Shown here in pieces: positions 15,664 through 56,550 of a DNA stretch of 64,000 bases. A program made the position numbers and the translations under genes. Below the pieces are notes generated by a model. The model saw nothing but the letters and a program-made list of their open reading frames with translations. It was not told the DNA's origin and made no database searches. Positions within the stretch are counted from its first letter, which is position 1. Each line of letters opens with the position of its first letter. Origin of the DNA: a virus; the IMG/VR virus record IMGVR_UViG_3300033153_009458, positions 87,142-151,141 of that record; one strand, written 5' to 3'.

Positions 15664-15674
15664 CGGTTAAAACC

Positions 15675-16115: not shown

Positions 16116-16117
16116 AA

Positions 16118-16461: not shown

Positions 16462-16481
16462 CTGTTAGGTATTACTTAACC

Positions 16482-29397: not shown

Positions 29398-29621
29398 AGA
29401 ACACTTTTTTCCTGTTTTTCACAATACGGACAAGGATGCCCACTCGGTAATTTTTTATTTAAATCAATAGTTGTTTCTTTAGTCCATTTAGAACAAATTA
29501 AACGCATTTTGTTATCGTCTAGTAATTCGAATGGATGATTACGTTTCCAATTCGGGCTGTATTTTTTATCGAACATGTCCGATACTTCTTGAATATTTAA
29601 ATATTCTCTAAATGTTTTCAT
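29394..29621 (-). CDS. CTS-tagged small zinc-binding protein
   Basis: 75 residues, MKTFREYLNIQE-V tag (possible cut after IQE, 10-12). The body has a single CPYC pair near the C-terminus and one more Cys (RLICSKW). A tiny DNA- or RNA-binding core protein is possible. Function unknown. Confidence 0.68.
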   Translation of the reverse strand: MKTFREYLNIQEVSDMFDKKYSPNWKRNHPFELLDDNKMRLICSKWTKETTIDLNKKLPSGHPCPYCEKQEKSVL

Positions 29622-30622
29622 TTAAATTTTACTCTCCATTTATTTAAATCAAACCAACCTTCATAATCATAATCATCGTACATAATTCCTTTTGTTAAAA
29701 TATTACCACTTACGGCTCTTTGCATTTTTTTAACAAAACCATTACAATCTAGGACCGAAAATTTGTATTTTTTATCTAATACTTCTTCAATTATATCGTA
29801 AACTAAACCACCATCGTTTAAATGCCATTCTAAGAATTCGGTGTACTCACCTTCTGGATAACTATCTGATAAAGCCTTCATATTGCTGTGTCTAAGTTCT
29901 ACTTGTCCTAAGTTCAAATGTCGAACTCCAATTTTATCAATAATTGGCAACATTTCAAATAATTCTTTTCGATGGTTAGGCCAAGAAGGTGTTTCTATAC
30001 TCACCGTGTTGAGTATTCCAACTGCTTCTTCTATTGTACGGTATATCTTTTCTGAAAAATTTGATGCACCGATATGAATTCGAATTTCATCAAAACCTAT
30101 TTCTTTTAAAAAAAGAAGTTTTTCATTGGTTAAGCTCATTCCATTTGTGTATACATAATACCAAATTGGACTTTTCAATTCGGGTTCAATAAAATTTTTA
30201 AAATATTTTGTACCGTGTGCAATCATATCTAAATGTAAAATTGGATCACCACCACCAGAAAATGATAATGAATGAACTTTACTTTTTTCATTTATAACTC
30301 TACTTAAAGCCCACTCAACCTCTTGTTTAAAAATATCGGGGATAGTGTGAATCTTTGTTTTTTTTTCGTTATTGTGTGATTCACGATTATCAGTACAATA
30401 ATCACAATTTGCTTGGCATAAATTTGGCTGCCCAAATAAAGATGGACCAACATTCATTTTTAATTGGCCGTACGCAAAGCATCCAACACATCCCGGTGAT
30501 AATTTACCTGTGTGAGCGCAATGTCCATTAGCGTGTATTCGTAAACCTTTAAGTTTTAATTTATTTTGTCGATCAAATATTTTTTGGTATGCTTCTTGTA
30601 TTGGTAATAATTTCATATTCAT
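29618..30622 (-). CDS. Radical SAM enzyme with extra Cys cluster
   Basis: 334 residues. The canonical radical SAM motif is CQANCDYC (Cys69, Cys73, Cys76), followed by SLSFSGGGDPILH, the usual SAM-binding strand, and YYVYTNG. Upstream Cys35, Cys45 and Cys48 (HCAHTGKLSPGCVGCF) may hold a further iron-sulfur cluster, which is unusual on the N-terminal side. Substrate unknown. It lies inside the CTS cluster, overlapping a CTS-tagged gene by 4 bases. Confidence 0.85.
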   Translation of the reverse strand: MNMKLLPIQEAYQKIFDRQNKLKLKGLRIHANGHCAHTGKLSPGCVGCFAYGQLKMNVGPSLFGQPNLCQANCDYCTDNRESHNNEKKTKIHTIPDIFKQEVEWALSRVINEKSKVHSLSFSGGGDPILHLDMIAHGTKYFKNFIEPELKSPIWYYVYTNGMSLTNEKLLFLKEIGFDEIRIHIGASNFSEKIYRTIEEAVGILNTVSIETPSWPNHRKELFEMLPIIDKIGVRHLNLGQVELRHSNMKALSDSYPEGEYTEFLEWHLNDGGLVYDIIEEVLDKKYKFSVLDCNGFVKKMQRAVSGNILTKGIMYDDYDYEGWFDLNKWRVKFK

Positions 30623-30639: not shown

Positions 30640-31152
30640 TTAATGTATTTTTGCTCTTTGTTTTATATATTCATTGAATTGACTTTTTCCTGTGTGGTTT
30701 TTTGTTAATTCTATTAAAAAATCTTGTGTAACTAATAAATGCCAAAAAATACCTTTTTTATTTTTTGGATTCAATAGTTTTGAATTGTTTAATACTTTTT
30801 GGTGATCTTTTTCAACTATTGCTGCTAATTTATTATGCCCGATGAATATACTATTTTCATTTTTTGGATTAAATAAATCTTCTAAAAAATCGATTCTTTC
30901 AATAGCACCTTTTCGAGTTTTCATTAATTTTGATGGAGCATTTCTTAATAAATCCCATTGTGTTGTATCTCGTGTTTCTAAAAGACTTACTCTTTGGCTT
31001 AATACATCAATTTGTTTATTGTTGTTTGATATCACCACTGTTACTGAAGTAACAGCCGTTGCAGTGACGAATACAACAAATAAAATAATTGCAATTAATT
31101 GTCGTACTGTTATTGTGGCCTTATCAGCGGCTATTGTTTTATCTGTTGTCAT
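30640..31152 (-). CDS. Single-span membrane protein
   Basis: 170 residues. One membrane segment at about residues 18-42 (LIAIILFVVFVTATAVTSV core), then a short coiled coil and a helical domain with basic C-terminus. Function unknown. It starts at the stop of the metallopeptidase gene. Confidence 0.62.
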   Translation of the reverse strand: MTTDKTIAADKATITVRQLIAIILFVVFVTATAVTSVTVVISNNNKQIDVLSQRVSLLETRDTTQWDLLRNAPSKLMKTRKGAIERIDFLEDLFNPKNENSIFIGHNKLAAIVEKDHQKVLNNSKLLNPKNKKGIFWHLLVTQDFLIELTKNHTGKSQFNEYIKQRAKIH

Positions 31153-31949
31153 TATGCGTACTTGAATTCGTATTCTTTGATTTCAATTTTAATTCTTTTC
31201 ATTAGATGATCCCAAAAGCCGGTTAGTCTTTTAATCCATTTTTTCTTGTATTTTTCATCGTATCGATCTATATCAGCGTATTTTCTAATCAAATCAAGAA
31301 ACCATATATAATCTTTTTCTCTAAGTTTTACTAAATTCATACGTTGCTCTAAAGACATTTCATTATAAACAACTTTTTCAAAATAACTTACAGCCGCTTG
31401 ATAAAATGCGTTGAATTCTTTAGGATTACTCATATAATCACTAGTAGATTGATAAACTTTATCTATCTTATCAAAATAATTATCTGGATTTTTCCAACGT
31501 TTTTTGTCCATCAAATGTATAACTTCATGAATAAAAGTTTCACGTTGTTTTTTAAATTTACCTGCTACTTTTCCATCATTAGATCTTTTGTTAAAATCCC
31601 ATGCCGGTGGTAATGCGTATATAATTATTAAGTCTTTATTTTCAATAGTAGTGCTGAACGAACCATGTGTAAATTTTTTTTCACCTGATGGTCTAATTGT
31701 ACTACCTTCTTTCATTTCAATTGTTAAATTTAATTTGTTAAATCGCTCACTAGCTCCTTGTACTTTAATTAATTCAAGACAATAAAATAACGGTCCTTCG
31801 TCTGAACGTTTACCAAGAAAAACATATTTAAATCTTTGTGATGGGTTTTTAAGCAAATTGTAAACACGTATGTATAACTTGTCCGCTATTACACGAAAAG
31901 CCGTATCCCGTTTTGCATCTTCTTCTAAGTATTGTCTAAATCGCTTCAT
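31152..31949 (-). CDS. CTS-tagged zinc metallopeptidase
   Basis: 265 residues. The tag MKRFRQYLEE-D has a possible cut after LEE (8-10). The zincin motif is FIHEVIHLM (HExxH at 141-145), and a downstream NPKEFNAFYQA (Glu178) could be the third zinc ligand in a gluzincin-like arrangement. The first half is beta-rich. A protease injected with the DNA would be able to cut a host protein; an assembly role is the alternative. Confidence 0.8.
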   Translation of the reverse strand: MKRFRQYLEEDAKRDTAFRVIADKLYIRVYNLLKNPSQRFKYVFLGKRSDEGPLFYCLELIKVQGASERFNKLNLTIEMKEGSTIRPSGEKKFTHGSFSTTIENKDLIIIYALPPAWDFNKRSNDGKVAGKFKKQRETFIHEVIHLMDKKRWKNPDNYFDKIDKVYQSTSDYMSNPKEFNAFYQAAVSYFEKVVYNEMSLEQRMNLVKLREKDYIWFLDLIRKYADIDRYDEKYKKKWIKRLTGFWDHLMKRIKIEIKEYEFKYA

Positions 31950-35370: not shown

Positions 35371-36138
35371 TTATCTTCGGTGGAACATTAAGCCTACACC
35401 AATTCGTTCAATGTCTTGATCCCATTGAAGTTGGTTATCTCCTTTCCCACGTTGGTAAGAATAAACTGTTTTTAAACTATTTGGAAAGATCCAATTCGGG
35501 TGTGAAAAACTTATATATCCACGATTAGAACCGCCATTCAGAGTCCACCAATTATCACCAAACTTGATAATTACAGTTCCATCGAAGTTACCCAAATCTC
35601 TAGCCATTTGTTCATGTTCATATAGAAGCACATTCCAAAACTTTCCACGCAAAACAAACGTTTCATTTTCCCATGTAGATTCAAAAAAAAATCGATCCCA
35701 CGATCTACTGAACAGCTCTGTTTGTCCGTTTGATTCGTGCCAATACCCGACATCGAACTGAAATCCGTTCCATTTGGGAGTCCGTATAAACACTTGTGGG
35801 TTGTAGTTTGTTTCCCTGAATGGTCTGGAGTTTTCTTTATTGTAAACATCCCACCAAGATTCCTGAGTAAATGCAACTACTAATTGCCAATCTTTATAAT
35901 TTAGTAATTCTGTTTTTACTGATATCTGAAATTTAGCTTCTGTGAATTCATCTATTACTTCACCTTGTTCATCGTAAATTATGTACTTACTGGCCGGTAC
36001 GAAATAATTATCGTAATGTGGAACTAACGAAATTGTAGGTTCTTCACCTTTGGCTTCATTAATCCACATAATACTTACCAAAATAGCTAATAACCCAAAA
36101 AATAGTATAATTAATCTAATTTTTATTTTTTCAGACAT
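35371..36138 (-). CDS. pldA: Outer membrane phospholipase A (OMPLA/PldA-like)
   Basis: 255 residues (E. coli PldA is 289). A signal peptide covers about residues 1-31 (Lys/Arg start, hydrophobic core, AKG cleavage). The active-site block HESNG...SRSWDR gives His134 and Ser136 at the positions of OMPLA His142 and Ser144, and Asp148 where E. coli has Asn156. Alternating aromatic beta strands up to the C-terminus fit a 12-strand barrel. It would open the outer membrane at lysis or change lipids earlier. Next to the lysis cassette. Confidence 0.88.
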   Translation of the reverse strand: MSEKIKIRLIILFFGLLAILVSIMWINEAKGEEPTISLVPHYDNYFVPASKYIIYDEQGEVIDEFTEAKFQISVKTELLNYKDWQLVVAFTQESWWDVYNKENSRPFRETNYNPQVFIRTPKWNGFQFDVGYWHESNGQTELFSRSWDRFFFESTWENETFVLRGKFWNVLLYEHEQMARDLGNFDGTVIIKFGDNWWTLNGGSNRGYISFSHPNWIFPNSLKTVYSYQRGKGDNQLQWDQDIERIGVGLMFHRR

Positions 36139-37144
36139 TTATTTTCTCCCAATTAATTGACGTACTGTATAGATATTTTTCTGATCTTGAATCACTACCA
36201 ATATGATTTGTTGGTGTCTCATGTGTACAACAAAATTCTAAATTGCAATCCATAATCATTTCTATTTCACTAAAAAAAGTTAAAATCATTCTATCAAATG
36301 ATAAAAATTGTTTTATGTATTCTTTTGTTAAAGGATGCAGCAACATTTTAAAATTGATATCCTTAATTATGTCTTCTATTGTGTCAAAAGAATTATCAAA
36401 TGGTAATATTTCATGTAACAGCCCGCTTAAGCACGAAACATAATGATTATTATTTAAAACTATAGGTATACAACCACAAGCTAATCCTTCTCTTATAGTC
36501 ATGGATAAACATTCATCCAAAGAAAACAACCACAAAAATTTATGTTCATTATATACTTGCAAAAGATCTTTACGGCTTACCATTCCTTGATAGTCTATAA
36601 CATCTTTATGCTTTTCATAATACGATTCATCTACCATAGGCCCGTAAAATTTTATCTTTTTGTTTTGTTTTCTGATGAATGAAATGAAATTTGGTAAAAT
36701 TTTTCTTTCATTTAATCTTCCAATATATAAAATATCATCACTTCTATCTTCCCACGGTGTAATATTTTCCCAAATATTACTTGAAACAAATTCCATCCGT
36801 TTTCTTTTTTTTAATAATTGGGCGTGATGCGTGGTAAATGATAGATTGAAATCTAGCACCGAAGTTACACACTCAGGATCACCATGTGTAATTCCACCAG
36901 CTGCTAAATTGATCACAGGAAGATTAATACGATTTAAAGTTTCAAAATAATGACCATCATCGAAGTCGTTCAGTAATATCAAATCATACGGTGAAAAATC
37001 TACTGATTTAATTTCCATCCCGCATTGAGATGCATATATATCGATATTATCAATTCCTTTTGTTCGTTTTAATATTTCAATAAAAATTTGTCCGGTATAC
37101 TCAACACCATAACTAGTATCCCGGTTCCAAAAAAATACGTTCAT
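36131..37144 (-). CDS. Glycosyltransferase, GT4-like (group 1)
   Basis: 337 residues. The C-terminal half has the GT-B pattern: ILYIGRLNERK at its start and ECLSMTIREGLACGCIPIV, the nucleotide-sugar binding block. The N-terminal half starts with a Rossmann strand (MNVFFWN) and has LLNDF. Acceptor unknown; it follows the radical-SAM module and could glycosylate a virion protein or the host envelope. Overlaps OMPLA by 8 bases. Confidence 0.8.
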   Translation of the reverse strand: MNVFFWNRDTSYGVEYTGQIFIEILKRTKGIDNIDIYASQCGMEIKSVDFSPYDLILLNDFDDGHYFETLNRINLPVINLAAGGITHGDPECVTSVLDFNLSFTTHHAQLLKKRKRMEFVSSNIWENITPWEDRSDDILYIGRLNERKILPNFISFIRKQNKKIKFYGPMVDESYYEKHKDVIDYQGMVSRKDLLQVYNEHKFLWLFSLDECLSMTIREGLACGCIPIVLNNNHYVSCLSGLLHEILPFDNSFDTIEDIIKDINFKMLLHPLTKEYIKQFLSFDRMILTFFSEIEMIMDCNLEFCCTHETPTNHIGSDSRSEKYLYSTSINWEKINV

Positions 37145-37149
37145 TTATT

Positions 37150-38124
37150 TTAATTGTTAATTGTTTCTAGATACGCAAAAAGTTCTTTTTCTTTTTGTAT
37201 AAATTCATTGCTAATATTTGTTAATGTATTATATCTGGTTTGAGAATCAGGATCATTCATAACATCGGCTAATTTATTCTTCCTTGCCAAATTAACAGCA
37301 TCTTTTAATTCTTGATTAAAATTATTTTCATCAACCATGTCTCTTAAATGCCCATCTTCCATGATAAATGGTTCATCAGGGTATTGCTCTTTAATAAGTA
37401 AATCCGCCGTTAAATAATCACCAAATTCATTTATTTTAAACTTATAATCTTTAGAATCTATTGTGCTTAATTTAATTATAAAAGGCGTATATGTAATAAA
37501 CCCTTTCCAAATAGGCCAAACTTGATGAGTTTCAGAAATATCAATATTTTTACCGTAACGGTATATCGTCGTATCTATATTATAAGATTCTAATATTTCT
37601 TTTTTATCATAATTGCCATCCAGCATAAATTTATAAAAATCATCTGACATTTTCAAAAAATCAAGAATTTGTTCACGATTTAAATAAGACATGAATTTTT
37701 TCATTGAATTGTTAATATAATTAAAATTAAAATCAAAAAATCGTTTATTTGCTGGCTCACCTGGAATCCATGATGTAGGAATCAAACATCTTCCGATAAT
37801 AACATCAATACGTTCTATATTATCAAAATCGGTATTAGTACACATCCAAAAATTTCCCATTTTTTCTATAAATTCTTCATAAAGTTGATACATACCTGTA
37901 TCTAAAAATTTAACTTTTAGAAATCGAGTTTCTTCTTCAAAGCCCATATTTAAAAATTTTTCTTTTTCTTGAAGATATATTGAAGCAAAATTGAAATAAT
38001 ATACATCTTTAGAAGGTACTAAAGTATATATATCAATATTAATATCAAAAATATTTTTTACCTCATAAATAAAATGACTTAATTTTTGAACTTCTATTAT
38101 TTTTTCTATTTTTCCGGCCGCCAT
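37150..38124 (-). CDS. Hypothetical protein of the radical-SAM locus
   Basis: 324 residues, alpha/beta with aromatic-rich segments, no recognised motif. It overlaps the upstream gene by 19 bases and sits between the glycosyltransferase and the radical-SAM pair. Could be an accessory modification protein; this is inference from position. Confidence 0.65.
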   Translation of the reverse strand: MAAGKIEKIIEVQKLSHFIYEVKNIFDINIDIYTLVPSKDVYYFNFASIYLQEKEKFLNMGFEEETRFLKVKFLDTGMYQLYEEFIEKMGNFWMCTNTDFDNIERIDVIIGRCLIPTSWIPGEPANKRFFDFNFNYINNSMKKFMSYLNREQILDFLKMSDDFYKFMLDGNYDKKEILESYNIDTTIYRYGKNIDISETHQVWPIWKGFITYTPFIIKLSTIDSKDYKFKINEFGDYLTADLLIKEQYPDEPFIMEDGHLRDMVDENNFNQELKDAVNLARKNKLADVMNDPDSQTRYNTLTNISNEFIQKEKELFAYLETINN

Positions 38125-38531
38125 CTTTGGATCTCTCTTAAATCTAATTCTTCATTTTTAAAATAAGAAATAATTCTATCAAAAATAAGTAAAAATCTAT
38201 CTGTAAAACTTCGACGCCTAGTTTTACTATCGTATCCTACATATTGTATATTCCAAATTTTTGTTTTTAAACCTTCTCCAAATATTTCATTTTCTTCAAG
38301 ATTATTAATCGCATCTTCATAAAAAGGAAAAGTAATAATATTACTGTTTGGATCACCATTAAACCAATTTAATAATGTATATGCTTGTATAACTTGTCTA
38401 GTATTATATTCGTCTTTAATTGAAGTATTTATAAAAGTTAAATCAGGTGGTATGGTAAATGACCAAGCAAATATTTCGGAGTCTAAATCAAAATTTTTAA
38501 TTTTTTGTAATATTTCATCCGCTGTTTGCAT
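38106..38531 (-). CDS. Hypothetical protein of the radical-SAM locus
   Basis: 141 residues with a hydrophobic middle part and Arg/Trp-rich C-terminus (QRWRPEK). No known domain. Its size and place next to the maturase pair would allow a peptide-recognition partner role; this is not shown. Confidence 0.62.
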   Translation of the reverse strand: MQTADEILQKIKNFDLDSEIFAWSFTIPPDLTFINTSIKDEYNTRQVIQAYTLLNWFNGDPNSNIITFPFYEDAINNLEENEIFGEGLKTKIWNIQYVGYDSKTRRRSFTDRFLLIFDRIISYFKNEELDLREIQRWRPEK

Positions 38532-38532
38532 T

Positions 38533-39075
38533 TTATTTACCTGTTTTTATTTTTGTCAATACATGGTCTGGATTATCAACATCTTTCATAATTTCATCAT
38601 CATCTTCAAGATACTGTAGATAATGTTTTGCAATATCTATACTTGGCGGATTCCAATGTCTGAATTCTCTTAAACGTTTTGATAAATTTTTAAGAATGTC
38701 TATAGCATCTTTTGTAGCCAAATATCCTTGAAGTAATCTTGTTATTAACGCTACATTGTGTTTAATTTTAGAATCTTTAAATGTATTCAAATTCCAATTA
38801 TGCACTAAATAAATCCACGCATTTGAAAAATCACAAAATACTTGATCAATTTCTTCATACAGAATTAAATTTAATAAATTTTCTAAAGTACCTCTTACTT
38901 TATCTATATCTATTTCACTTAATTCTTCATCTTTTCCCAATAATTCAATATGGTTTCTTATAGCTTCATATGAATATATAAATCTATCAAAAGTATCGTG
39001 CCCTAATATGATTTCAGTTTCAACCCTATTGCAAAATAATCCATTAATTGTATCATAACATAATTTTTCATCCAT
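38533..39075 (-). CDS. Helical hypothetical protein of the radical-SAM locus
   Basis: 180 residues, mostly alpha-helical, with HWNPPSIDIAKHYLQYL near the C-terminus. Not recognised. Directly downstream of the SPASM radical-SAM gene (6-base gap). Confidence 0.62.
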   Translation of the reverse strand: MDEKLCYDTINGLFCNRVETEIILGHDTFDRFIYSYEAIRNHIELLGKDEELSEIDIDKVRGTLENLLNLILYEEIDQVFCDFSNAWIYLVHNWNLNTFKDSKIKHNVALITRLLQGYLATKDAIDILKNLSKRLREFRHWNPPSIDIAKHYLQYLEDDDEIMKDVDNPDHVLTKIKTGK

Positions 39076-39081
39076 AATTCT

Positions 39082-40467
39082 TTATTCTCCTAATGTTTTT
39101 TTAATTTTTTTATATGAAACTGCTTGCTCTAAACTTAGAAAATTTACAAAAAATTCAAACAATCCGTGTTCAGATAAAAATTCTATTTGAGCTTTAACTT
39201 TTCCGAATTCAAGTAAACAGACTGAAGGATCGGGTAAAAAAGGATCACCTGTTGCTTCATATTGTGCACCCATACAACCACCTAAACATATTTCTTTAAT
39301 TCCACAACTGACACAATACGGCCAATTTGTGTGATCTGTTGTCATTGTTCCTATATAATATTCAACGTTTTTTGGTTCTATATCAATGATGTTTTCACCA
39401 TCATGTATAAATTTAAATCCATTGAAAGAATCATAAGATTGTCTATGACAAGGTGTAGCTGCTAAATCACTAAGCCGAAGTTGCATTGTTGTCTGTAAAC
39501 TACACCCAATTCCTCTACCAATTTTTCCTATGTTATTAAACATATTCATACGGCTAACATTACACGATGCTTTATCACCGTATCCACCAAATACGAAACC
39601 AAGGATAAAAGTTTCAGGATTTCTATTTAATTTATTGTACGCAAATTCTAATACTTTTTTATAAAAATCTATATATAAATTTACAGTTTTTTTTGTCCAT
39701 CCTTTATTTCTAACTTCTAATAGATATATATTATTCCAATTAATACCAAATTCTTCAAATTTTTCTTGAAACCACATAAAATTTTTGAAAGCATTTTCAA
39801 TATTATCGTAATGAATCATAGGATGAAAACCACATCCATATTGTTTTGAATATTCAAATATTTTATCGTAAAATTCATCTGTATAATAATCGTGCTGATC
39901 TAGTGTATTAATATAAGGTCGATTAACATGATCCATATATTTACCATCAAAAGATGCACTAAGTCCAAAATGTATACCAGCTTCTTTAGCTCTTTTACCA
40001 ATATTTACTACTTTTTCTGTTATAGTATTACTACGTATCCACCCAAAATTTGTTGGTACTACAATGTCTGGTTTTTTATCTGTATTTTTATAGAAATCAA
40101 ATACCATATCAAAAATTTTAAATGTTGATGGTTGTAAAAATATTTCACCCCCAAAAAGTTCAAATACAGCTGGATAATAATTATTCTTACTTAAAAAATT
40201 AAACATAATTTCTGCATTTTTTAGAAGAGTTTTGGTATCAGCCAATTCTGATGGGTGTAATTCTTTTCCATGCCCACTGCGATCATTATAATAACAGTAA
40301 GTACAATTTAGATTGCACCTAGGTTTTAATTGAAATTCTAAATTATCGTATAATTTATGACTGTGGTCTAAGTCACCTTCGAATCTAGGAGTTTTCCAAT
40401 CTTTAAAATGAGTATTCTCTAAATACGTCCACAATAATTCTTTTTGTTCATCTTGGTGTGTTTTCAT
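39082..40467 (-). CDS. Radical SAM peptide maturase with SPASM domain
   Basis: 461 residues. CNLNCTYC (Cys51, Cys55, Cys58) binds the radical-SAM cluster; FELFGGEIFLQ and GLSASFDG are the usual SAM barrel segments. The C-terminal Cys set (SCNVSR, GCSLQ, TPCHRQ, YCVSCGIKEICLGGCMG, SVCLL) is a SPASM or twitch auxiliary cluster domain like that of anaerobic sulfatase maturases and RiPP enzymes. Paired head-to-tail with another radical SAM and two His/Tyr-rich proteins. Confidence 0.9.
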   Translation of the reverse strand: MKTHQDEQKELLWTYLENTHFKDWKTPRFEGDLDHSHKLYDNLEFQLKPRCNLNCTYCYYNDRSGHGKELHPSELADTKTLLKNAEIMFNFLSKNNYYPAVFELFGGEIFLQPSTFKIFDMVFDFYKNTDKKPDIVVPTNFGWIRSNTITEKVVNIGKRAKEAGIHFGLSASFDGKYMDHVNRPYINTLDQHDYYTDEFYDKIFEYSKQYGCGFHPMIHYDNIENAFKNFMWFQEKFEEFGINWNNIYLLEVRNKGWTKKTVNLYIDFYKKVLEFAYNKLNRNPETFILGFVFGGYGDKASCNVSRMNMFNNIGKIGRGIGCSLQTTMQLRLSDLAATPCHRQSYDSFNGFKFIHDGENIIDIEPKNVEYYIGTMTTDHTNWPYCVSCGIKEICLGGCMGAQYEATGDPFLPDPSVCLLEFGKVKAQIEFLSEHGLFEFFVNFLSLEQAVSYKKIKKTLGE

Positions 40468-41871
40468 TTAATTTATTTTCCTTTCTGTTATATATCGTTT
40501 CAAAAATGACTCTACCATTCCATTTCCAAATAATTTGAAATACGAATTAAAATTTAATTGCATAGAACCTAAAAACATTTGTGCATCAACATTACAAGAA
40601 TGCCTAGAATTACAAAAAAAGGCCAATACTTCTGCCATTTCAGTTTCTTTATAACATTTTGAAACTTGACCAGCTTTTGCTAATAATTTTATCATTGCAA
40701 CAGAAAGTGATAAACGATTTTTTGGAAAATCATGAAAACTTCGCATAAAATAAAGATATTCTGTCAATTTTTTATCTGTCAATTCATCAAATTTAATTGT
40801 AAGATTTTTTTCTGCCATTTTACTTCTTCCACTAACAATACTATCCACATTTTTTATGCTTTGTGTTCTATTGTTTTTACCTTGTTGAAGAGTTTCTTCT
40901 TGTAATTTTTCATTGTTTAAAAAAAATGTTGCATGGCAAGGATGCAAATAATCACTAAATCCAAATTGTGAATCACCAGCCGAGCATGTAAACATAGAAG
41001 GTTTTGAAAAATATTGTGGAGAAAGTAACAACAATCCATAAAAAGCTTGATAATAATTACTACCCGGTGATATATACTTAAATCTAGTATTTTGTTGAAA
41101 TTCGAGCGTTTTTTCATATAATTCGTGAAAACAAATTCCATCTAGTTGTGTATATTCATCAGGGCAAACAATAGTTGGATCAACATTTCTTGAAAAAAAC
41201 ATTGCGTGTTTTGTATTTACAGATTCTATTCGTTCAAAAACTTCATCAAAAAATTCATAATATTTTAATATTTCACCATCTTCAAGCATTTTAGGAAATT
41301 GTGTTCTACTCATTGTAGGTTTAAAATGACAGTGTACAACTGTGAAAGGTACATTTTCTATATTGTTAACACCTTCAACAAATTTAACCATATTTTTTAT
41401 AATTGTTTCAGTAGCACCAATTTTTCTATTTTCATCTGTTACCCACTTTGGACCATCAAGAGAAAATTGTACGTGTAATTCAATTTTTCTATCGTCAATT
41501 TTTGGAAAATGTTCTACAAAATTTATTAACGCATTTGTGTGTGATAAAAAATTTGAAGAAAATCCTATTTGTTTTAACTTAGGAAATTTAGACAAAGCTT
41601 TTCTGTAAAATGGTTTAAAATATTTAATTGTTAAACTAGGTTCAGTTCCCCAATGTGTAAAATATTCTAAATCTTCACCGTATAAATCATATAATCTGTC
41701 TATGATTGGATCAACTTCTTGAATTTTTTTAATAACATCTTCATGCATTTGATCTATTGCCGGACTATTTTTTAAAATATGACAATATGTACAATCTAAA
41801 TTACATTTGGCTGAAGAAAATAGTTCAGCGGCAGCCGGTTTATAAAATTTAGAAACGCTAGATAGAAGCAT
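40468..41871 (-). CDS. Radical SAM enzyme, partner of the SPASM maturase
   Basis: 467 residues. CNLDCTYC (Cys23, Cys27, Cys30), then FTHWGTEPSLT and HVQFSLDGPKW, the SAM-binding and barrel strands. Additional Cys in FTCSAGDSQFGF, HPCHAT, SRHSCNVDAQ may bind auxiliary clusters. It ends one base before the SPASM gene starts. Its own start follows the His/Tyr-rich protein by 24 bases, so the three form an operon. Confidence 0.88.
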   Translation of the reverse strand: MLLSSVSKFYKPAAAELFSSAKCNLDCTYCHILKNSPAIDQMHEDVIKKIQEVDPIIDRLYDLYGEDLEYFTHWGTEPSLTIKYFKPFYRKALSKFPKLKQIGFSSNFLSHTNALINFVEHFPKIDDRKIELHVQFSLDGPKWVTDENRKIGATETIIKNMVKFVEGVNNIENVPFTVVHCHFKPTMSRTQFPKMLEDGEILKYYEFFDEVFERIESVNTKHAMFFSRNVDPTIVCPDEYTQLDGICFHELYEKTLEFQQNTRFKYISPGSNYYQAFYGLLLLSPQYFSKPSMFTCSAGDSQFGFSDYLHPCHATFFLNNEKLQEETLQQGKNNRTQSIKNVDSIVSGRSKMAEKNLTIKFDELTDKKLTEYLYFMRSFHDFPKNRLSLSVAMIKLLAKAGQVSKCYKETEMAEVLAFFCNSRHSCNVDAQMFLGSMQLNFNSYFKLFGNGMVESFLKRYITERKIN

Positions 41872-41895
41872 TTTTTAGTTCCTTTGTTAAAATTT

Positions 41896-42300
41896 TTATG
41901 TTGGTGGTATATTCCATATTGGATTTACAGTTACATATGCACCCGGTGTTTGCGGCGTATAATCAACACCTTTATGACCTGAGTAATAAGATCCTTCGTC
42001 TGAATAATCAGAACTTGGATAATTGATACTGTATTTAGTGTTATCATCTGATCCATAATGAGTACCTAATATGCCATCTTTATGACTTGGATAATAAGTG
42101 CCTTCGTGTCCATCATAATGGGTTTTATGTTCATTATCATCGTGGCCCGGATAATGTGTATCATATTGAGTTACTTGATCAGCTAAATTAGCTAAATTTT
42201 CATCTACATAACTTACATTATCTTGTATTTCGGTTATTTGTGCTGTTTTTATTGATGTACTTGTTGTGATTGTAGGATCTTCTACCCATGTAAATGACAT
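41896..42300 (-). CDS. His/Tyr-repeat protein 1, candidate substrate of radical SAM pair
   Basis: 134 residues. The N-terminal 50 residues look like a virion-fibre start (MSFTWVEDPTITTSTSIKT...ITEIQDN). From residue 50 it repeats a motif (T/S)-(H/Y)-Y-x-(G/S)-H: THYPGH, THYDGH, TYYPSH, THYGSD, SYYSGH, with 8 His and about 14 Tyr overall. The repeats end in an aromatic-proline tail. Adjacent upstream to the radical-SAM pair in the same direction. Confidence 0.75.
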   Translation of the reverse strand: MSFTWVEDPTITTSTSIKTAQITEIQDNVSYVDENLANLADQVTQYDTHYPGHDDNEHKTHYDGHEGTYYPSHKDGILGTHYGSDDNTKYSINYPSSDYSDEGSYYSGHKGVDYTPQTPGAYVTVNPIWNIPPT

Positions 42301-42312
42301 TTATTTCTCCTA

Positions 42313-42837
42313 TTAGGCTTTGAGATACGGATTGTGATTGCCACCTTTAATAGTCACATCATGACCATCTAACGCACCTGGATAATTTCCCGGATAATCA
42401 CCTGGATAATGTGTACTTTTGTGTAAACTCCACTGACTACCATCATGAGTAGGACAATGAGCAGCTTTTTGAACAGATAGCACATTACTCACATAACTTC
42501 CTTTATGCGTTGTTTCTAACGCCGGATTATGGCTTCCATAATGTGTTATATAATGAAATTCATCCCATCCAGTATCAAGAGCAGCTTTATGGGTAATTTC
42601 ATTACCACTTAAATGTGCTCGGCAATAATTTTGATCATCTAAATAATCTGTAGCTAACCTAAGTTCTTCAACATCTAATTCTTCTACGTTTTCACCTTCA
42701 CCGCTAATATCCGTCCAAGACCAATCAGTAGTATCCAATTTTGCAGGATTTGTTGCAACGTCACTTATGTTGACTCGTATTTCCGCGTGTTCTTCATTTT
42801 CAATATCACCTGTTACAGGTAGCCATTCAAAACTCAT
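42313..42837 (-). CDS. His/Tyr-repeat protein 2, candidate substrate of radical SAM pair
   Basis: 174 residues. It starts MSFEW like its neighbour. The C-terminal half is rich in HY and HxG units: HYITHYGSHNP, TTHKGSY, AAHCPTHDG, LHKSTHYPGDYPGNYPG, DGHD, GNHNP, with 13 His. Two Cys are also present. A late promoter box precedes it at 42865. Virion function likely but unproved. Confidence 0.75.
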   Translation of the reverse strand: MSFEWLPVTGDIENEEHAEIRVNISDVATNPAKLDTTDWSWTDISGEGENVEELDVEELRLATDYLDDQNYCRAHLSGNEITHKAALDTGWDEFHYITHYGSHNPALETTHKGSYVSNVLSVQKAAHCPTHDGSQWSLHKSTHYPGDYPGNYPGALDGHDVTIKGGNHNPYLKA

Positions 42838-42864: not shown

Positions 42865-42872
42865 TATTTATA
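42865..42872 (-). promoter_or_regulatory. T4-like late promoter box TATAAATA
   Basis: Exact minus-strand TATAAATA, 28 bases upstream of the His/Tyr-repeat protein 2 gene, overlapping the 3' end of the preceding gene. It would express the repeat proteins and the radical-SAM pair late. Confidence 0.6.
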
Positions 42873-43494
42873 ATCTTAAAACATTACTAAAACACTCAAC
42901 TTTCTTAATATCCCGTTTAGAATTACTTTCTAATGCTTCACCTATGACAAGTTTTTGATCATCTGTTTTTTTAATTTTTCGTGCAAAACCTTCACCAGCC
43001 GGAACAAGTTTATCCCATTTTTTAACAGAACCTTTTACTAATACTGGTACTCGGCCAATCATCGTAATTCCTGGTCCATCGCATCCACGGTTCATTAAAT
43101 GTGCTGGTTTAGTGGTAATAATACCAAAAACATCTGGATCAAGTTCTTTATCAGAAATTTTCAATTCAGAACCTTCTTCTTTGTTTCGACTAGCTAACAT
43201 TCCGGGTTCCCATATTCCTGTTAATGTGTATCGTTCCGCTAAATCTGAATATAGAGCCGCTGTTGCTGTTCCTGTCATTTCATTACAAGCAAAATCACCA
43301 GACGCATCACGTTTAATAATTTGATCTACTGTATTGATAGATGTAGCACCGTGTACATCTTTTGTTCCCATTGTTGCATCCAAATTCTCATGATCTAATA
43401 AATTAGTTTCAATACTAGCAATATTCGGTGTTGTATTATCTGTTTTATGCTTTTTTTTACGTAAAGTAAAACCACTTCTAATTATTGTTGCCAT
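42868..43494 (-). CDS. Structural protein with peptidase G2-like C-terminal domain
   Basis: 208 residues. ALYSDLAERY, EPGMLASRN and later VFGIITTKPAHLMNR, MIGRVPVLVKGSVKKWDKLVP follow the pattern of the intramolecular chaperone/peptidase G2-like end of phage fibre and structural proteins. It probably attaches to or caps the large fibre protein encoded just upstream. Confidence 0.68.
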   Translation of the reverse strand: MATIIRSGFTLRKKKHKTDNTTPNIASIETNLLDHENLDATMGTKDVHGATSINTVDQIIKRDASGDFACNEMTGTATAALYSDLAERYTLTGIWEPGMLASRNKEEGSELKISDKELDPDVFGIITTKPAHLMNRGCDGPGITMIGRVPVLVKGSVKKWDKLVPAGEGFARKIKKTDDQKLVIGEALESNSKRDIKKVECFSNVLRL

Positions 43495-43501: not shown

Positions 43502-46500
43502 CTATACTATTCTTATCCATCCAGTTAATGCAGCATATAAAACCGCAACATCCCACTGAGTTGTTAATGCTAATGATGAAGCCGACCCATTAATAGTTTC
43601 AGAACTATCAGGATCAAGTGTAAATGTTCCAGATGCTCCTATATTTACAAATATAAAAGTTCGTTCTACAACAGACGCCACTGGTAATAAAGTTAATGTT
43701 AATCCACTACCATTATCACCTGTAACAAAATGATCATCAATATCGAGAGTATCAGCTGATACATAATTAGTTTCTTTCGCTGTATGGTATCCAGTAACGG
43801 CTTGATGTTGTGCTAAAATAAGTTGATTATTTTCAAGTGAATTATCTACAGCACCATAATATTCTTCAAAAATTAAACTTTCACTAACACCCAAACCGTA
43901 TAACATTTTTACTGAATAGTGATCATTTTCTTCAAAATCAGTACCAATAAATAATCTTCCGTTAGTATCAGAAGTAAGTTGTAAACTAACACCGTCTTTT
44001 GTATACGATCCATTATTCGGAATAGTGATAATATCATTAGGTGATCCACCACTTCCACTGTCTGTATATATTTCGAACATTTTCTTAATGGACGCAATAA
44101 CCTTATTATCGTAACCGTACATAACACCAAAGCTGTTTATTGTACCTGTTGCACCCCACGTAAAACGAAGATGCAAATCTACAAACCCACCCGTTACAAG
44201 AACAGGTTCATCGTATTTTGGAATTTTTATCCACGTAGAAGGTGATTCATCTATTGAATATTCAACAACCATTCTTGGTTCTTCAACATATTCAGCGTGT
44301 ACTTGAAATCTATAATCGGTTGTTGGTCTTCTTGCTTCCCAAACAACACCGCCAGCATCTTCGATAACAACATCTTCTTCAAGACTATTACTGATCTCAC
44401 GATGTAGATTTCTTATTTCGTACGGTGATAATGTTACACTATAAACTCTGACTTGATCGACATGACCATTTAGAGCTGATGAAGTATTTTTATAAGATCC
44501 GATAATCATTTGATTTACAGTTGAATTACTTAAATCTAATGAGGCTGGTACTGATATTGTTTCAGACGTAACTTCTACACCATCTAAATACATTTTTGCT
44601 GTTGGTCCAGATCCATCGTACGTTGCAACTAAACTATGAAATTTATCAGATATATCTGTAAAAGCATGTACATCAGAAAAACCTGTTAAGCCAAATGTCA
44701 AGTTTCCACTTACTAAAGCTAAATAAAAATCACCGGCTGTTCCAACATAAGGACCAATATCAAATAATCCATCATCCCCTGAAGTTACATTTGCTTGAAA
44801 TGCTAAAGAAACAGAAAAATTTGTCACCGCCGCACCTAAAGCTGTTGGGAATGTAGTTCCGGTATTAATTTCACCGGTTCCCGGTAAAAACATTGATTTT
44901 CCAACATGACCTATATTTACTTGTATTAATTCTGATGATGCTGTTCCATCATAACTATTTGATGTTTCGTCTACGACCGTTGTTCCTGTTACATCATCCA
45001 TTGTATAATGAGCTTCTAAACTCGATGTTGATACTTTATCTGTCCAACTTGGTTCTGATCCTGATGAAGTACCCGCTTCTATACATTCCCAAATCCATGA
45101 ATCTGCAAGAATTTCATCTTCTAATGCCCATGCTTGTATTCCCCACGTATCATCAGTTTCAGATATAATTTGTTTTTGTATGTACTCTGTTGCGATACCG
45201 TTATAAACACTATCATTAAATGATGCATCACCAGTAACAGTTCCCGGTTGAGAAAAAGTATCATAATGCATTCTTAAAAAAGACGATGATTCTAACAAAC
45301 CACTATATTGCATATCTTCTTGCGAAGCCATAACAGGACCATCTTCACCACCTGTTGAAGCAGTAATAACCATATAATAATTTGATCCGATCAATCCAAT
45401 GTATCGACCAACTTCTACACCTGATGGTAAATTAGTTACTTTACCCGGATAAGAAGCTTCTAAAGATAAGTAAACTTTATCACCAATTGCTAACGAAGTA
45501 TTCGTAACCACGTAACCTAAAGTTCCTGTACTATCGGCACCGGTACCTGTATCAGTTCCCATATCAACATAACCTTGAGACTGTACGATACCATTATCAC
45601 CCACTGTTGGCCCTTCAGTACATACACCAATAAAATATTCTTTTGCTGTATTGTCTACAATAGCTCTATCATATTCAAGCCCAGAATTGTCGTATACATA
45701 AACGACATCATATGCATCAACATTACTGTTAAAATGAGCAAATTGATCAATGGCTGTATCGACGTATCGATCACCTAAAATATTAATTAAAATTGTTCCA
45801 CCAGCTGCAACGGTACCTATTGTGACAACTGTTGCCACTTCTATATTATTGGTGTTGCGTTTTGTAGTAGTTAATAAACCACTTGTTGTATACGATAGAT
45901 AAGCTTTGTCACCTACTACCGCTGTTGTGCCTTCTATACTCGTTGTATCGTACGCAACTAAACCGTGTGAAATCATCACACCAGCTGTTGACGTAATACC
46001 AAAAGCTATACCTACAACGGCACTAGCTGGATTATCATCAAAATCTAATTTTGCTTTTGTGTAAGTTGAGTCTGATTTTCTGTATACAAATTCATAATCG
46101 GCTACTGTTCCTTCGAATGTTGCGTTTTCATCTACTGCAAAATTTTCTAAAGAAAGATTTTGACCGATTCTTAAGAATATATAACCAGTTCCAACCGCAC
46201 CTTTAGCGATTACATAACCAACTTCGACGTTATCAGCCGTGTCTTTTGTATTAGATATTGCACCAGCTGAATCTTTTGATAGGTAAAGTTTTTCACCTAC
46301 AGTTACAGTTGAGGCAGCCGCTTGAGTTACGTCATCCCAAATTTTTGTTGCATCTTGTGTGTCGTATGTAACGAAACCACCACTTAAAACACCACCATAA
46401 TCCGTATCAGAAACGTCATACGCTATACCAACAACATCAGCTGTTAGTGGTGTACTATTTAAATTTTGTGCTTGTTTATAGTCACCATCAGATGCGTGAT

Positions 46501-48340
46501 AAACTAAATCGTAATCAGAAACACCAGAATAACTCGGATCTTCATCAAACATTTGTCCACGGTACGTGAACGTGTGATCAGTATTTCCCCTTACGTAAAT
46601 ACCAGCTTTCATCATTTCATTTTGAATGTTATCATGAGAAAAAGCACCCTCATCATGATCATCTAAAGCCGCCGCTGAACCACCAACAAAAGAAATTAAA
46701 ATAGTTCCGGTTACTGAATCACCAGTAGCAATAACCATACCAACACGAGTATTATCTGTTGTCTGTGGAACATTCGCAAATTGTCCTTCATTGTATTTTG
46801 ACAAATACAGAATATCGCCTGGATTCACTGTGGTTGGTGCTGTACCCGCACCATCTTCGATTAGAGTAGTATCATAATGAACGTATCCACTCGATAAAAC
46901 GTAACCCGTTTTTCCAGATCCATTTGTTCTGTGTGAAACACCAATAGCTCTTTCAAGTATAGTATCAACTGCTTCATTCAATGCTTTACCATAAGTACCG
47001 TCTGTCTTCATGTAGATTAACGATATTTCATTATCACTCCATGATTCAGCGGCATTAAAAACAGCATTTTCGTCAAAGTATTGCCCACGATATTCGAAAT
47101 CTGTTACACCTTGCGATTGATTATAAGTCCAAAGACCAGCTTTTTGCATTGCTGTAATTATATCAGGATGCGCTAATGCAAAATCGTTATGATCATCTAT
47201 ATTACCCGCACCTGTTGCAAGCCCTAATAAAAATTTACCACTTCCAAGTGAAATACCAATTCGAACTTTCATATCACCTTCAAACACACCTTCGTAATCA
47301 GCGTGATATCCCCAATCAATACCACTTCCACCTGAACCACCGTTATCAGCTACACCGTTTGTTCCATCAACAAAAGCATCACCTGTTTTATAATAAACTG
47401 ATGGGTTATCCCATGTTGTTGGTTTAGTCGAGCCGTGTGTATCACCACCATTAATAGCCCGCCAAATACGGTCATTAGTTACCATGTAAATATCAGCTAC
47501 ATGAGTTGTATTAGCAATCCATTTGATAAAATCTCTTTCAATTTTACCAGCTGTGGTATCTGACAAATAAAGATACGTTCCTTCAGCGTATAATTCAGCA
47601 TCAGTAGATAAATCGTTTTGCCCCCCTGATCCGGTTGTATCTACTACACCAGAAGTTATAACAATATTATTACCAAATACACCGTCCCTTGATACATCAA
47701 CAATACCGATAACTGCTTCTTGTTCTTTGTCGGCATCATCGGCTAAAGCTGGATCAAAAAATGTAGTCTTGTAATAAACAAGGTCCATATTTTGAACAGT
47801 TGTTGGATAGTCTAATGCTGCATCTTTAATAACATTTTGACCACGGTAAATAAAATCATTATCATCAAATCCTAAAACACCGTAATCTTTTAATACTTGA
47901 GTAGCGTCTAAAACGCCTTGTGAAATGACTGTTCTTACTGAAGTTGGATCGATGTGATTATAAGAATCTGTTTCATCCAGAATAACTCTGAATGTACATA
48001 TAACTCTTCTTCCAGTATCGTCACCATCCCAAATTGTATCACCAGCACCAATATATGTACCGACTGAAACAGGTTGTTGAATGATTGCTTTACCAGCTGT
48101 ATCCGATCCTGTTGGTGCTGAAGCGTATAAAACATAATTTCCGGGTGATAATGATGGTACAATAATCACTTCTTCTTCTGCTATGTAATAACCCCTTCCA
48201 TTACCGCCAATATTAACTAGTCCTTCATAAACTGTAAGTCTGTGATCAGCGGCACCCGAATAGGTAGAGGTATCCGCAATCGCCTGTTTAAATGAAATAA
48301 ACCCGGCTGATTGCGAAGCAAGATAAAATTTTTCGGCCAT
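43502..48340 (-). CDS. Very large fibre-like structural protein with LamG domain and tandem repeats
   Basis: 1612 residues. Residues about 120-1010 hold five or six diverged repeats of roughly 110-150 residues with a shared pattern (DF.Y(R)GQ-VY..-A..GIA..-SGYV.YDT-V..GD.LYLS..G-V.VGYVI..G-GTI.I). Residues about 1108-1315 form a LamG/concanavalin-like domain (HYTMDDVTGTTVVDE... up to RVYSVTLSPYEIRNLHR). A C-terminal region ends in a beta segment. It is probably a receptor-binding or baseplate fibre. In-frame stops are absent. Confidence 0.82.
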   Translation of the reverse strand: MAEKFYLASQSAGFISFKQAIADTSTYSGAADHRLTVYEGLVNIGGNGRGYYIAEEEVIIVPSLSPGNYVLYASAPTGSDTAGKAIIQQPVSVGTYIGAGDTIWDGDDTGRRVICTFRVILDETDSYNHIDPTSVRTVISQGVLDATQVLKDYGVLGFDDNDFIYRGQNVIKDAALDYPTTVQNMDLVYYKTTFFDPALADDADKEQEAVIGIVDVSRDGVFGNNIVITSGVVDTTGSGGQNDLSTDAELYAEGTYLYLSDTTAGKIERDFIKWIANTTHVADIYMVTNDRIWRAINGGDTHGSTKPTTWDNPSVYYKTGDAFVDGTNGVADNGGSGGSGIDWGYHADYEGVFEGDMKVRIGISLGSGKFLLGLATGAGNIDDHNDFALAHPDIITAMQKAGLWTYNQSQGVTDFEYRGQYFDENAVFNAAESWSDNEISLIYMKTDGTYGKALNEAVDTILERAIGVSHRTNGSGKTGYVLSSGYVHYDTTLIEDGAGTAPTTVNPGDILYLSKYNEGQFANVPQTTDNTRVGMVIATGDSVTGTILISFVGGSAAALDDHDEGAFSHDNIQNEMMKAGIYVRGNTDHTFTYRGQMFDEDPSYSGVSDYDLVYHASDGDYKQAQNLNSTPLTADVVGIAYDVSDTDYGGVLSGGFVTYDTQDATKIWDDVTQAAASTVTVGEKLYLSKDSAGAISNTKDTADNVEVGYVIAKGAVGTGYIFLRIGQNLSLENFAVDENATFEGTVADYEFVYRKSDSTYTKAKLDFDDNPASAVVGIAFGITSTAGVMISHGLVAYDTTSIEGTTAVVGDKAYLSYTTSGLLTTTKRNTNNIEVATVVTIGTVAAGGTILINILGDRYVDTAIDQFAHFNSNVDAYDVVYVYDNSGLEYDRAIVDNTAKEYFIGVCTEGPTVGDNGIVQSQGYVDMGTDTGTGADSTGTLGYVVTNTSLAIGDKVYLSLEASYPGKVTNLPSGVEVGRYIGLIGSNYYMVITASTGGEDGPVMASQEDMQYSGLLESSSFLRMHYDTFSQPGTVTGDASFNDSVYNGIATEYIQKQIISETDDTWGIQAWALEDEILADSWIWECIEAGTSSGSEPSWTDKVSTSSLEAHYTMDDVTGTTVVDETSNSYDGTASSELIQVNIGHVGKSMFLPGTGEINTGTTFPTALGAAVTNFSVSLAFQANVTSGDDGLFDIGPYVGTAGDFYLALVSGNLTFGLTGFSDVHAFTDISDKFHSLVATYDGSGPTAKMYLDGVEVTSETISVPASLDLSNSTVNQMIIGSYKNTSSALNGHVDQVRVYSVTLSPYEIRNLHREISNSLEEDVVIEDAGGVVWEARRPTTDYRFQVHAEYVEEPRMVVEYSIDESPSTWIKIPKYDEPVLVTGGFVDLHLRFTWGATGTINSFGVMYGYDNKVIASIKKMFEIYTDSGSGGSPNDIITIPNNGSYTKDGVSLQLTSDTNGRLFIGTDFEENDHYSVKMLYGLGVSESLIFEEYYGAVDNSLENNQLILAQHQAVTGYHTAKETNYVSADTLDIDDHFVTGDNGSGLTLTLLPVASVVERTFIFVNIGASGTFTLDPDSSETINGSASSLALTTQWDVAVLYAALTGWIRIV

Positions 48341-53955: not shown

Positions 53956-54289
53956 AGAATTTTTTTGGCCGAATCTGTGTGCTATTAATTTTGCTAGACC
54001 CCGAAATTTTGCTATTTGGATGATATATATTTCCGTTGCAATAATTACAGAAATTACTATATTTTCATTAGGTTTTTGGACTCTAAATGCATTCATTATA
54101 TTCACATTGATTATGCTGGCATCTTTATTATATTACGTTTATTGTATAATACGATGCAATCCATTTGTAAGTTTAATGAAAGCAAGTTTAATAAAAGTAC
54201 CAGAAAACAATCCTCAAATCATAATCGGGCATTGCTGGAAATGTGGGTCCGCTATATACAAAGACAACTTAGATGAACATACAAGATAA
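53933..54289 (+). CDS. Two-span membrane protein with C-terminal zinc motif
   Basis: 118 residues from the ATG at 53933. Hydrophobic segments at about 27-50 and 53-75 suggest two membrane helices; CWKCGSAIY near the C-terminus is a half zinc ribbon. It overlaps both neighbours by 20 or so bases. Function unknown. Confidence 0.6.
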   Translation: MNTLKKIKEFFWPNLCAINFARPRNFAIWMIYISVAIITEITIFSLGFWTLNAFIIFTLIMLASLLYYVYCIIRCNPFVSLMKASLIKVPENNPQIIIGHCWKCGSAIYKDNLDEHTR

Positions 54290-55397
54290 AACAATTTCAA
54301 GATACATGTACGAACAACTTTCAGCAAACGGTTTAAATATTTTACCTATAATGTCGGCTTGTTCGTCGAAGTGTTTCTTTTGCTCGAATAAGCTTAATCC
54401 TTTTCCTGTTTACACCGATCCGCCACGGCCACTCGACGAAATAAAAAAAGCAGTGTTAATGATTGGTCAAAATCCAAACAGCATGATTGATTTGTCGTAC
54501 GCTAGAAAAATGACTGAAGGTGAAGCAATTCAACATCCGAATTTTTTTGAAATTTTAGATATAATTCGAAAAAAACATCCGCAAAATAAAATTTTCTTTT
54601 ATACGAATGGTGTGCATTTTACAGAAGAGAACATCAAAGAATTATCTAAATATTCACCTATCAATGTTTCTTTGTCAATACATAGTATTAATTCAGATTA
54701 TTGGTGTGAAATTTCAGGTAAAAATATAGACGATTACACAAGGGTAATGTCTTCTCTTAGTTTATTATCTGAGTACAAAATTAAAATAACACCAACAGTT
54801 GTTCCTATGCCAGAATTAGTTGGTTGGGATGATATAGATCAAACTATCGAAAAACTTTCAAATTATTCAAACAGAATCCAAATATATACACCCGGTTTCA
54901 CAGATAATTCTAATGAAAAAACTAAAAAATTTATGAATATTGACTTAGAAGAATTATCCACTGTATTAAATATATTAAGTAAAAAATATAGTGTCGATTT
55001 GTCATTTTTTGGCGATCCGAACAAACCAATTAATTTTTATCCTGAAGGTATGCTTAATATGACTATGGATATGCGCTATATGAACGTTTTATGGATGTTT
55101 TCTGAATTTGCTTATACACAAGCGAATTCCATTTTAAATGCGTACGCCAGAACAACAGGTAATAATCATTATACTTGTTCAGTAAAAAATTATACGTACG
55201 GTGGAAATATTAAATGTGCTGGTTTGTTAACAGTTGACGATTTTAAAACTTCATTAAAAGAAGTATTACCAAAATTACCTAAAATAGATTGTATTATGTT
55301 ACCCGGAGTAGCATTTGATTCATTTGGTGAAGATTTAAAAAGTACACCTTATTCTGAAATTATAGATGAATTCGATATACAAACTAAACTAGGATAA
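54273..55397 (+). CDS. Radical SAM enzyme
   Basis: 374 residues. CSSKCFFC (Cys30, Cys34, Cys37) binds the cluster; MIDLSYARKMTEGEA replaces the usual GGE strand; FFYTNGVHFTEENI and VSLSIHSIN follow the barrel. The C-terminal 120 residues have CSVKN and KCAGLL that might bind another cluster. Layout resembles DUF512-type radical SAM proteins; I cannot assign a substrate. Followed by a PP-loop ATPase in one operon. Confidence 0.82.
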   Translation: MNIQDKTISRYMYEQLSANGLNILPIMSACSSKCFFCSNKLNPFPVYTDPPRPLDEIKKAVLMIGQNPNSMIDLSYARKMTEGEAIQHPNFFEILDIIRKKHPQNKIFFYTNGVHFTEENIKELSKYSPINVSLSIHSINSDYWCEISGKNIDDYTRVMSSLSLLSEYKIKITPTVVPMPELVGWDDIDQTIEKLSNYSNRIQIYTPGFTDNSNEKTKKFMNIDLEELSTVLNILSKKYSVDLSFFGDPNKPINFYPEGMLNMTMDMRYMNVLWMFSEFAYTQANSILNAYARTTGNNHYTCSVKNYTYGGNIKCAGLLTVDDFKTSLKEVLPKLPKIDCIMLPGVAFDSFGEDLKSTPYSEIIDEFDIQTKLG

Positions 55398-55398
55398 A

Positions 55399-56331: not shown

Positions 56332-56550
56332 ATGAAATACAAGGTTAGTAATGGATCAATAGTTTTTTATGCACTTGTACAATTTTCTATAATAATATTC
56401 GCATTATATGCTGGATATGCAACTGGAGCAGCTGTTGCATTTATAACAATCCTTTGTTTTTTCTCTGATATTTTTGACATCATAGAAAACTCATTCAAAA
56501 AATTTACAAAAGAAGTAATAATATATAGGATACATAATGAAAATAATTAG
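56332..56550 (+). CDS. Small membrane protein
   Basis: 72 residues with a hydrophobic stretch over residues 9-50 that could form one or two membrane helices. Polar C-terminus. AAGGAAAC ribosome binding site. Function unknown. Confidence 0.6.
   Translation: MKYKVSNGSIVFYALVQFSIIIFALYAGYATGAAVAFITILCFFSDIFDIIENSFKKFTKEVIIYRIHNENN

Follow-up and report, generated by a model that had tools for sequence, protein, structure and literature searches.

Radical S-adenosylmethionine (rSAM) enzymes have known maturation roles in the making of antibiotics and cofactors and in the activation of enzymes. The present analysis concerns a viral gene block with two such enzymes, found in a window of 64,000 nucleotides (positions 87,142 to 151,141 of the 151 kb IMG/VR record IMGVR_UViG_3300033153_009458, a T4-like phage contig). 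In this block two repeat proteins (R1 and R2) are followed by two rSAM proteins (rB and rA) and a helper candidate (u180), and it is probable that the two rSAM proteins and the helper modify the four-residue (tetrad) repeats of the paired proteins, which would be part of the tail or adhesion apparatus. Two precedents in the literature come closest: TvgB, which acts on TVGG repeats, and the two-rSAM, two-substrate enzymes of thuricin CD. In TvgA/TvgB of Halomonas anticariensis, the rSAM enzyme forms cyclopropylglycine within TVGG tetrapeptide repeats (PMC9062424). Compared by description, the likeness lies in an rSAM enzyme working on a tetrapeptide-repeat protein, and T-V-G-G itself fits the tetrad pattern of the R proteins. 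TvgA/TvgB consists of a single rSAM enzyme and a single short bacterial precursor with invariant TVGG, whereas the block described here is virus-borne, lies in a tail module and has two rSAM proteins, a helper and two long proteins with degenerate tetrads. In thuricin CD, TrnC and TrnD jointly process TrnA and TrnB (PMC12093266). The two enzymes function as a complex on two substrates, which resembles the present arrangement, but thuricin CD has recognition element (RRE) domains, Cys-based thioethers and an antibiotic role, while no RRE was found for this block and its repeats are mostly Cys-poor. Among open-licence papers, no equivalent system and no virus using an rSAM enzyme on its own surface proteins was found. 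The viral role of rSAM peptide maturation, a process known in itself, is apparently undescribed, and the original prediction of an undescribed system made from this DNA is supported as probable.

The core features of the block are as follows.

42313..42837, minus strand: R1, 174 amino acids (aa) with 13 His; two N-terminal FxW domains, a conserved DYxDDxNYC junction, then tetrad repeats
42316..42612, minus strand: tetrad-repeat region of R1 (residues 76-174), containing THKA ALDT GWDE FHYI THYG SHNP
41896..42300, minus strand: R2, 134 aa with 8 His; one N-terminal FxW domain, then tetrads
41899..42174, minus strand: tetrad-repeat region of R2 (residues 43-134), containing THYP GHDD NEHK THYD GHEG TYYP
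40468..41871, minus strand: rB, 467 aa rSAM protein; CxxxCxxC (C23/27/30) and conserved C296, C312 and C426, full SPASM set absent
39082..40467, minus strand: rA, 461 aa rSAM/SPASM protein; C51/55/58 and C322, C340, C385, C388, C394, C398 and C417
38533..39075, minus strand: u180, predicted all-helical helper; conserved NWN and C-terminal PPxxELSxHYL motifs

Recurrence and linkage of the block

Two rSAM genes in tandem after two repeat-protein genes had been predicted from the letters of the window, and this layout was confirmed on the minus strand. Scanning with a single rA sequence gave two loci (L001 and L002), and rA profiles built from two and five sequences gave 28 viral loci and seven contigs from genome collections. 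The 30 tabulated sets were obtained by annotating each locus with rA, rB, u180 and R profiles, by reading the R proteins and by adding R-seeded loci. The block R1-R2-rB-rA-u180 recurs in 30 diverged loci, recoded phages included. Both rSAM genes are present in all 30, u180 in 26 and the R pair in 28, the two loci without it being L025 and L037, the latter of which starts inside an R gene. As a single block of two R genes, rB and rA (with or without u180), the arrangement is found in the window and in 27 further tabulated loci. The loci are well separated from each other, with a median pairwise rA identity of 39%, no pair at 90% or above and 19 clusters at 50%. Among L006/L007 and L011 are the closest relatives of the window rA; L006 rA is the nearest at 48% identity.

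Repeat proteins occurring widely without the rSAM pair would have spoken against a joint system. A scan seeded with R1 only found nine loci, and all eight that were long enough downstream (8/8) carry rSAM genes. All-against-all clustering of the neighbouring genes showed that only the rSAM (33 loci), u180 (27) and R (26) families recur generally, followed by a glycosyltransferase and a fibre-like family with eight loci each. The distances between proteins are also correlated, with r=0.87 for rA/rB, 0.75 for rA/u180 and 0.41-0.48 for R/rSAM (all Mantel p=0.001), where the R/rSAM value needs careful reading because R distances partly reflect composition. The genetic tie between the rSAM pair and the repeat proteins, in a layout like that of ribosomally synthesised and post-translationally modified peptides (RiPPs) and in a tail/fibre neighbourhood, was borne out, and it is practically certain that the cassette exists as a linked unit.

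The block is kept under altered genetic codes. L006, L007 and L011 read TGA as Trp and keep the cassette, which is also retained in L028 and L039 with in-frame TAG. L011, L028, L031 and L039 add to these as partial or recoded cases, and one metagenome-assembled genome (MAG) holds three copies. In L012, L015 and L020 the block is divided into rB-u180a and rA-u180b around R1-R2, with one helper per enzyme. L049 (1349-8771) carries an expanded version in which four R-type proteins surround rA, a glycosyltransferase and rB.

Tetrad repeats and radical-SAM enzymes

The repeat unit of the R proteins is a strict tetrad, [T/S/G]-[Y/V/H/D/N]-[D/N/Y/C]-[S/G/T/A]. The array of window R1 reads THKA ALDT GWDE FHYI THYG SHNP ALET THKG SYVS and that of R2 reads THYP GHDD NEHK THYD GHEG TYYP SHKD GILG THYG; over 191 residues the register slips no more than once. 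A cyclic emission model applied to the R proteins of all loci decisively preferred period 4, with a Bayesian information criterion (BIC) gain of 2152, compared with 1775 for period 8, 122 for period 2 and negative values for 3, 5, 6, 7 and 9. The consensus of this model is [T24 S22 G20]-[Y22 V15 H15 D15]-[D25 N20 Y18 C8]-[S32 G12 T11 A10]. With the tetrad model, R1 and R2 were the only scoring open reading frames in the whole window. In the window and L001 proteins, the autocorrelation of the H/Y and S/T classes has its maxima at multiples of 4, and when the R proteins of all loci were pooled, z was 22, 31, 23 and 34 for periods 4, 8, 12 and 16 and -20 for period 2. Register slips range from 0 to about 2 per 100 residues in most loci and are more frequent in the divergent L030, L033, L034 and L040. 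The hexamer (T/S)-(H/Y)-Y-x-(G/S)-H, first proposed as the unit, is a local reading of this tetrad.

The residues of the tetrad differ in their conservation. Across the tabulated loci, position 1 is S, T, G or A in 59-100% of cases and position 4 in 43-92%. Aromatics at position 2 fall from 74% in L029 to 3% in L020, and the share of His is about 0% in L020 and 2% in L006. His and Tyr are features of particular lineages, and one lineage has hardly any of either; His does not define the repeat as had been thought. Ahead of the repeats, an N-terminal domain of the pattern FxW...ELRxxxDYxDDxNYC is present in two copies in R1 and one in R2. No convincing Pfam or PHROG family match was obtained for this domain in the window proteins; it is conserved and leader-like. 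R proteins reach 390-505 aa in relatives.

In L020 (7695-9973) the two R proteins, 390 and 368 aa long, are composed of near-perfect octads (VDSGDDVT VNADKDTT), and R1 of this locus lies above the Pfam cut-offs for the T4 gp5 C-terminal trimerisation domain (Gp5_trimer_C, 2.1e-10) and DUF2345 (5.2e-14). Because of this gp5 match, the tetrads, taken two per octad, hint at an ability to form a triple-stranded beta-helix like that of the T4 gp5 C-terminus and VgrG, with which octad periodicity is shared. We know of no rSAM partner for gp5/VgrG beta-helix proteins. Such a likeness could also mean that R1 and R2 are ordinary trimeric beta-helix segments of a fibre or needle, the rSAM proteins modify another tail protein, a tRNA or a host component, and the two are linked only by horizontal transfer as a morphogenesis cassette. 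The strength of period 8 agrees with this explanation as does the L020 match; but among 10 R proteins scanned singly L020 R1 alone matched Gp5_trimer_C, and the window R proteins did not. Moreover, the rSAM pair, the helper and R occur together and diverge together over 30 loci in which every other neighbour varies, and SPASM domains mostly act on peptides or proteins. We regard ordinary fibre segments as quite improbable, and action of the rSAM proteins on R as likely.

Both rSAM proteins contain CxxxCxxC. Pfam Radical_SAM was matched by the two below cut-off only (1.2e-4 and 3.6e-3), and many rSAM models match them. In rA the iron-sulphur cysteines are all kept in 30/30 loci, three in the radical motif (C51/C55/C58) and seven in the SPASM arrangement C..C..CX2CX5CX3C..C (C322, C340, C385, C388, C394, C398 and C417). 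The SPASM-like Cys set noticed earlier in rA is hence a full set of seven, and the TIGR04085 SPASM model gave 22.5 bits against a cut-off of 27. In rB the CxxxCxxC, C296 and C312 are kept in 30/30 and C426 in 29/30 loci; beyond these, the seven-Cys SPASM set was not found in rB of the 30 loci. The nearest structures and families by profile are PapB, of the ranthipeptide maturase family, for rA (1.3e-13), PDB 5wgg, which we take to be CteB, also for rA (1.2e-7), and the anaerobic sulfatase maturase PDB 4k37 for rB (2.8e-6). The rSAM proteins of the cassette differ from these in lying far below the family cut-offs and in their presumed substrates.

The resemblance to His-Xaa-Ser systems (HxsA/B/C/D), in which paired rSAM proteins stand beside a His-rich repeat protein, was the analogy first drawn, and it raises the question of whether the block is this or another named rSAM maturase system. 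The maturase profile search did not sustain it. The HxsB model TIGR03978 gave 17.9 bits for rA and 27.5 for rB against a cut-off of 370, and the HxsC model TIGR03977 was neither among the families listed for rB nor among the best 25 of 32 for rA. The other maturase models were also below cut-off, with 19.4 against 350 for the CXXX-repeat maturase and 50.9 against 340 for PapB. In addition, the R repeat has period 4, not the period 3 of His-x-Ser, and His is optional in it. Membership in a named system is thus very improbable, although two rSAM genes do adjoin a His-rich repeat protein.

Proposed function of the cassette

The cassette would be a virus-borne post-translational maturation system. 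R1 and R2 would be paired substrates, with the N-terminal domains as recognition modules and the C-terminal tetrad arrays as the modified region. Along the array, rA with its SPASM domain and rB with its three-Cys auxiliary set, aided by u180, would repeatedly abstract hydrogen atoms, so that each tetrad is changed by their action. The modified pair would then be built into the tail or adhesion apparatus with no export as a free peptide, and in some phages the glycosyltransferase may add a further layer. Placement of R in the virion as a tail or adhesion part is likely. What the data show directly are the genes, the tetrad register, the conserved Fe-S ligands, linkage with co-divergence, the tail-module setting and the viral distribution, whereas R1/R2 as substrates and virion parts, and the chemistry, are inferred. 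The structure of u180 was predicted by AlphaFold2 as all-helical with a mean predicted local distance difference test score (pLDDT) of 90, and a fold search of PDB and BFVD returned nothing below E 0.16; if the proposal is true, u180 would found a new family of helper proteins. A PqqD-type RRE (PF05402) was absent from 23 virus records, so u180 and the N-terminal domain of R presumably serve in substrate recognition.

Regarding the chemistry, we tentatively favour, as a guess that is less likely than not, a change at small residues or the backbone, such as epimerisation or a cross-link centred on Ser/Thr or Asp/Asn. It is favoured because every lineage has S/T/G/A recurring at positions 1 and 4, D/N stand at position 3 in most lineages while position-2 aromatics can be so rare, and neither an aromatic nor His is universal. 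The fullest form of the proposal is plausible, though short of what we would lean to: a tail needle or adhesin made from the tetrad-protein pair, with a dedicated machine of two rSAM proteins and a helper epimerising or cross-linking its repeats en masse by radical chemistry, in a widespread class of tailed viruses. Such a product would be a structural polymer of the virion with non-ribosomal chemistry, retained under three genetic codes and in viruses of bacteria and possibly of archaea. If true, it would represent a new type of virion material and a new class of rSAM substrate with dozens of tandem sites, and would provide a marker for uncultured tailed viruses. The question of why fibres should be chemically altered, whether for protease resistance, stiffness, host adhesion or escape from host defence, would also become testable.

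A phage-borne RiPP was weighed against this. Here R1 and R2 would be precursors whose rSAM-modified cores are freed at lysis as a soluble antimicrobial or signal and do not enter the virion. Two precursors with two rSAM enzymes resemble two-component sactibiotics such as thuricin CD (PMC12093266), and the leader-like N-terminal domains would suit precursors. But no conserved exporter or protease family was seen beside the block in the neighbour clustering and flanking genes, no ABC transporter (ABC_tran) exceeded the cut-off in the 23 records, which also lacked the RRE, the R proteins of relatives are large for RiPP precursors, and the block is consistently placed among tail genes. We consider this explanation unlikely.

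Several points weigh against modification of the R pair by the rSAM proteins as part of the virion. L025 has rB-rA-u180 yet no R across its whole 37.6 kb contig, and u180 was not seen in L033, L040 and L049. The recurrence is partly by construction, as the loci were found with rA, although R, rB and u180 were outside that query. The resemblance of rA and rB to characterised maturases is weak and mainly confined to the rSAM core. The AlphaFold2 monomer of window R1 leaves the tetrad array unfolded, with pLDDT below 50 over residues 111-174, and only N-terminal helices reach around 70-80.

Genomic setting and neighbouring genes

The record carries T4-type head and tail genes (major head protein, portal, head protease, sheath and tube). 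On the minus strand the order of transcription is R1, R2, rB, rA, u180, u141, u324 and glycosyltransferase, and R1-R2 are preceded on the same strand by a large fibre-like gene and a tail-fibre-like gene. The features around the core are given below.

43502..48340, minus strand: 1612 aa protein, fibre-like by look of sequence and position; no PHROG match
42868..43494, minus strand: 208 aa tail-fibre-tip-like protein directly upstream of R1 (phrog_22593 3e-14; phrog_19602 tail fiber 2e-5)
38106..38531, minus strand: u141, 141 aa, function unknown, co-directional
37150..38124, minus strand: u324, 324 aa, function unknown, co-directional
36131..37144, minus strand: glycosyltransferase of GT group 1 type, optional; about eight other loci have a homologue beside the block or within it

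Across loci, the genes flanking the block encode tape measure, tail fibre, baseplate gp10 C-terminal domain, peptidase_G2 and lectin/laminin-G domains, and homologues of the 208 aa protein adjoin the block in L006. The downstream genes had been read as following in the same direction; they are present and co-directional, but the glycosyltransferase is optional (8/33 loci in one neighbour clustering, plus L049), and no relative of u141 or u324 was found in any other locus examined. All three were dropped as core parts. A late promoter box had also been claimed. The motif TATAAATA does stand at 42865-42872 just upstream of R1, but the argument was dropped since its count in the window (11) equals the chance expectation (11.9).

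The block is carried by many unrelated, mostly uncultured tailed viruses. By tblastn against the 50,697 phage records of INPHARED, at the limits used, no close relative was found for six query proteins, namely the window's rA, rB and R1, the rA and R proteins of L001 and the R protein of L049; the L001 rA homologue matched only distant Campylobacter-phage rSAM proteins and one faecal contig, weakly. The PHROG 1802 radical SAM domain protein (for example Campylobacter phage CP220 gp023) is phage-borne and of the same broad superfamily, but it and the L001 rA homologue are only about 24% identical, and a tetrad-repeat protein was not found nearby. Origin from a host genome was tested and rejected, as only the seed genome itself was positive among 300 genomes of the family of an Oscillospiraceae MAG, and likewise among 300 of the class of a Thermoplasmata MAG. 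Cellular genomes are essentially free of the system. MAG contigs named archaeal or bacterial are probably binned virus contigs; two of them, in the pairs L035/L017 and L038/L024, agree with IMG/VR entries in length and coordinates and are the same contigs.

L002 was considered as a relative of the cassette and set aside, no R match having been found in it. Its region 7966-16905 holds an rA-like rSAM protein, two YcaO proteins (PF02624, 1.8e-32 and 5.2e-28), two proteins that by eye resemble U32 peptidases, and in-frame TAG codons, and is possibly a diverged virus-borne rSAM/YcaO modification cluster.

Other genes of the window were also noted. An outer-membrane phospholipase A1 (PF02253, 1.8e-38) at 35371-36138 on the minus strand overlaps the end of the glycosyltransferase gene, and is an unusual phage-encoded candidate for lysis or envelope action. 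Another rSAM gene at 54273-56052 on the plus strand (PF04055, 3.5e-14), with weak HxsC/TYW1 similarity, is directly followed by a QueC-like gene and then by ThyX (56537-57532); the rSAM and QueC-like genes possibly serve 7-deazaguanine-type DNA modification. A further rSAM-like gene is located at 29618-30622 on the minus strand (PF04055, 3.4e-5), near 31152-31949, where a zinc-protease-like HEVIH motif is encoded.

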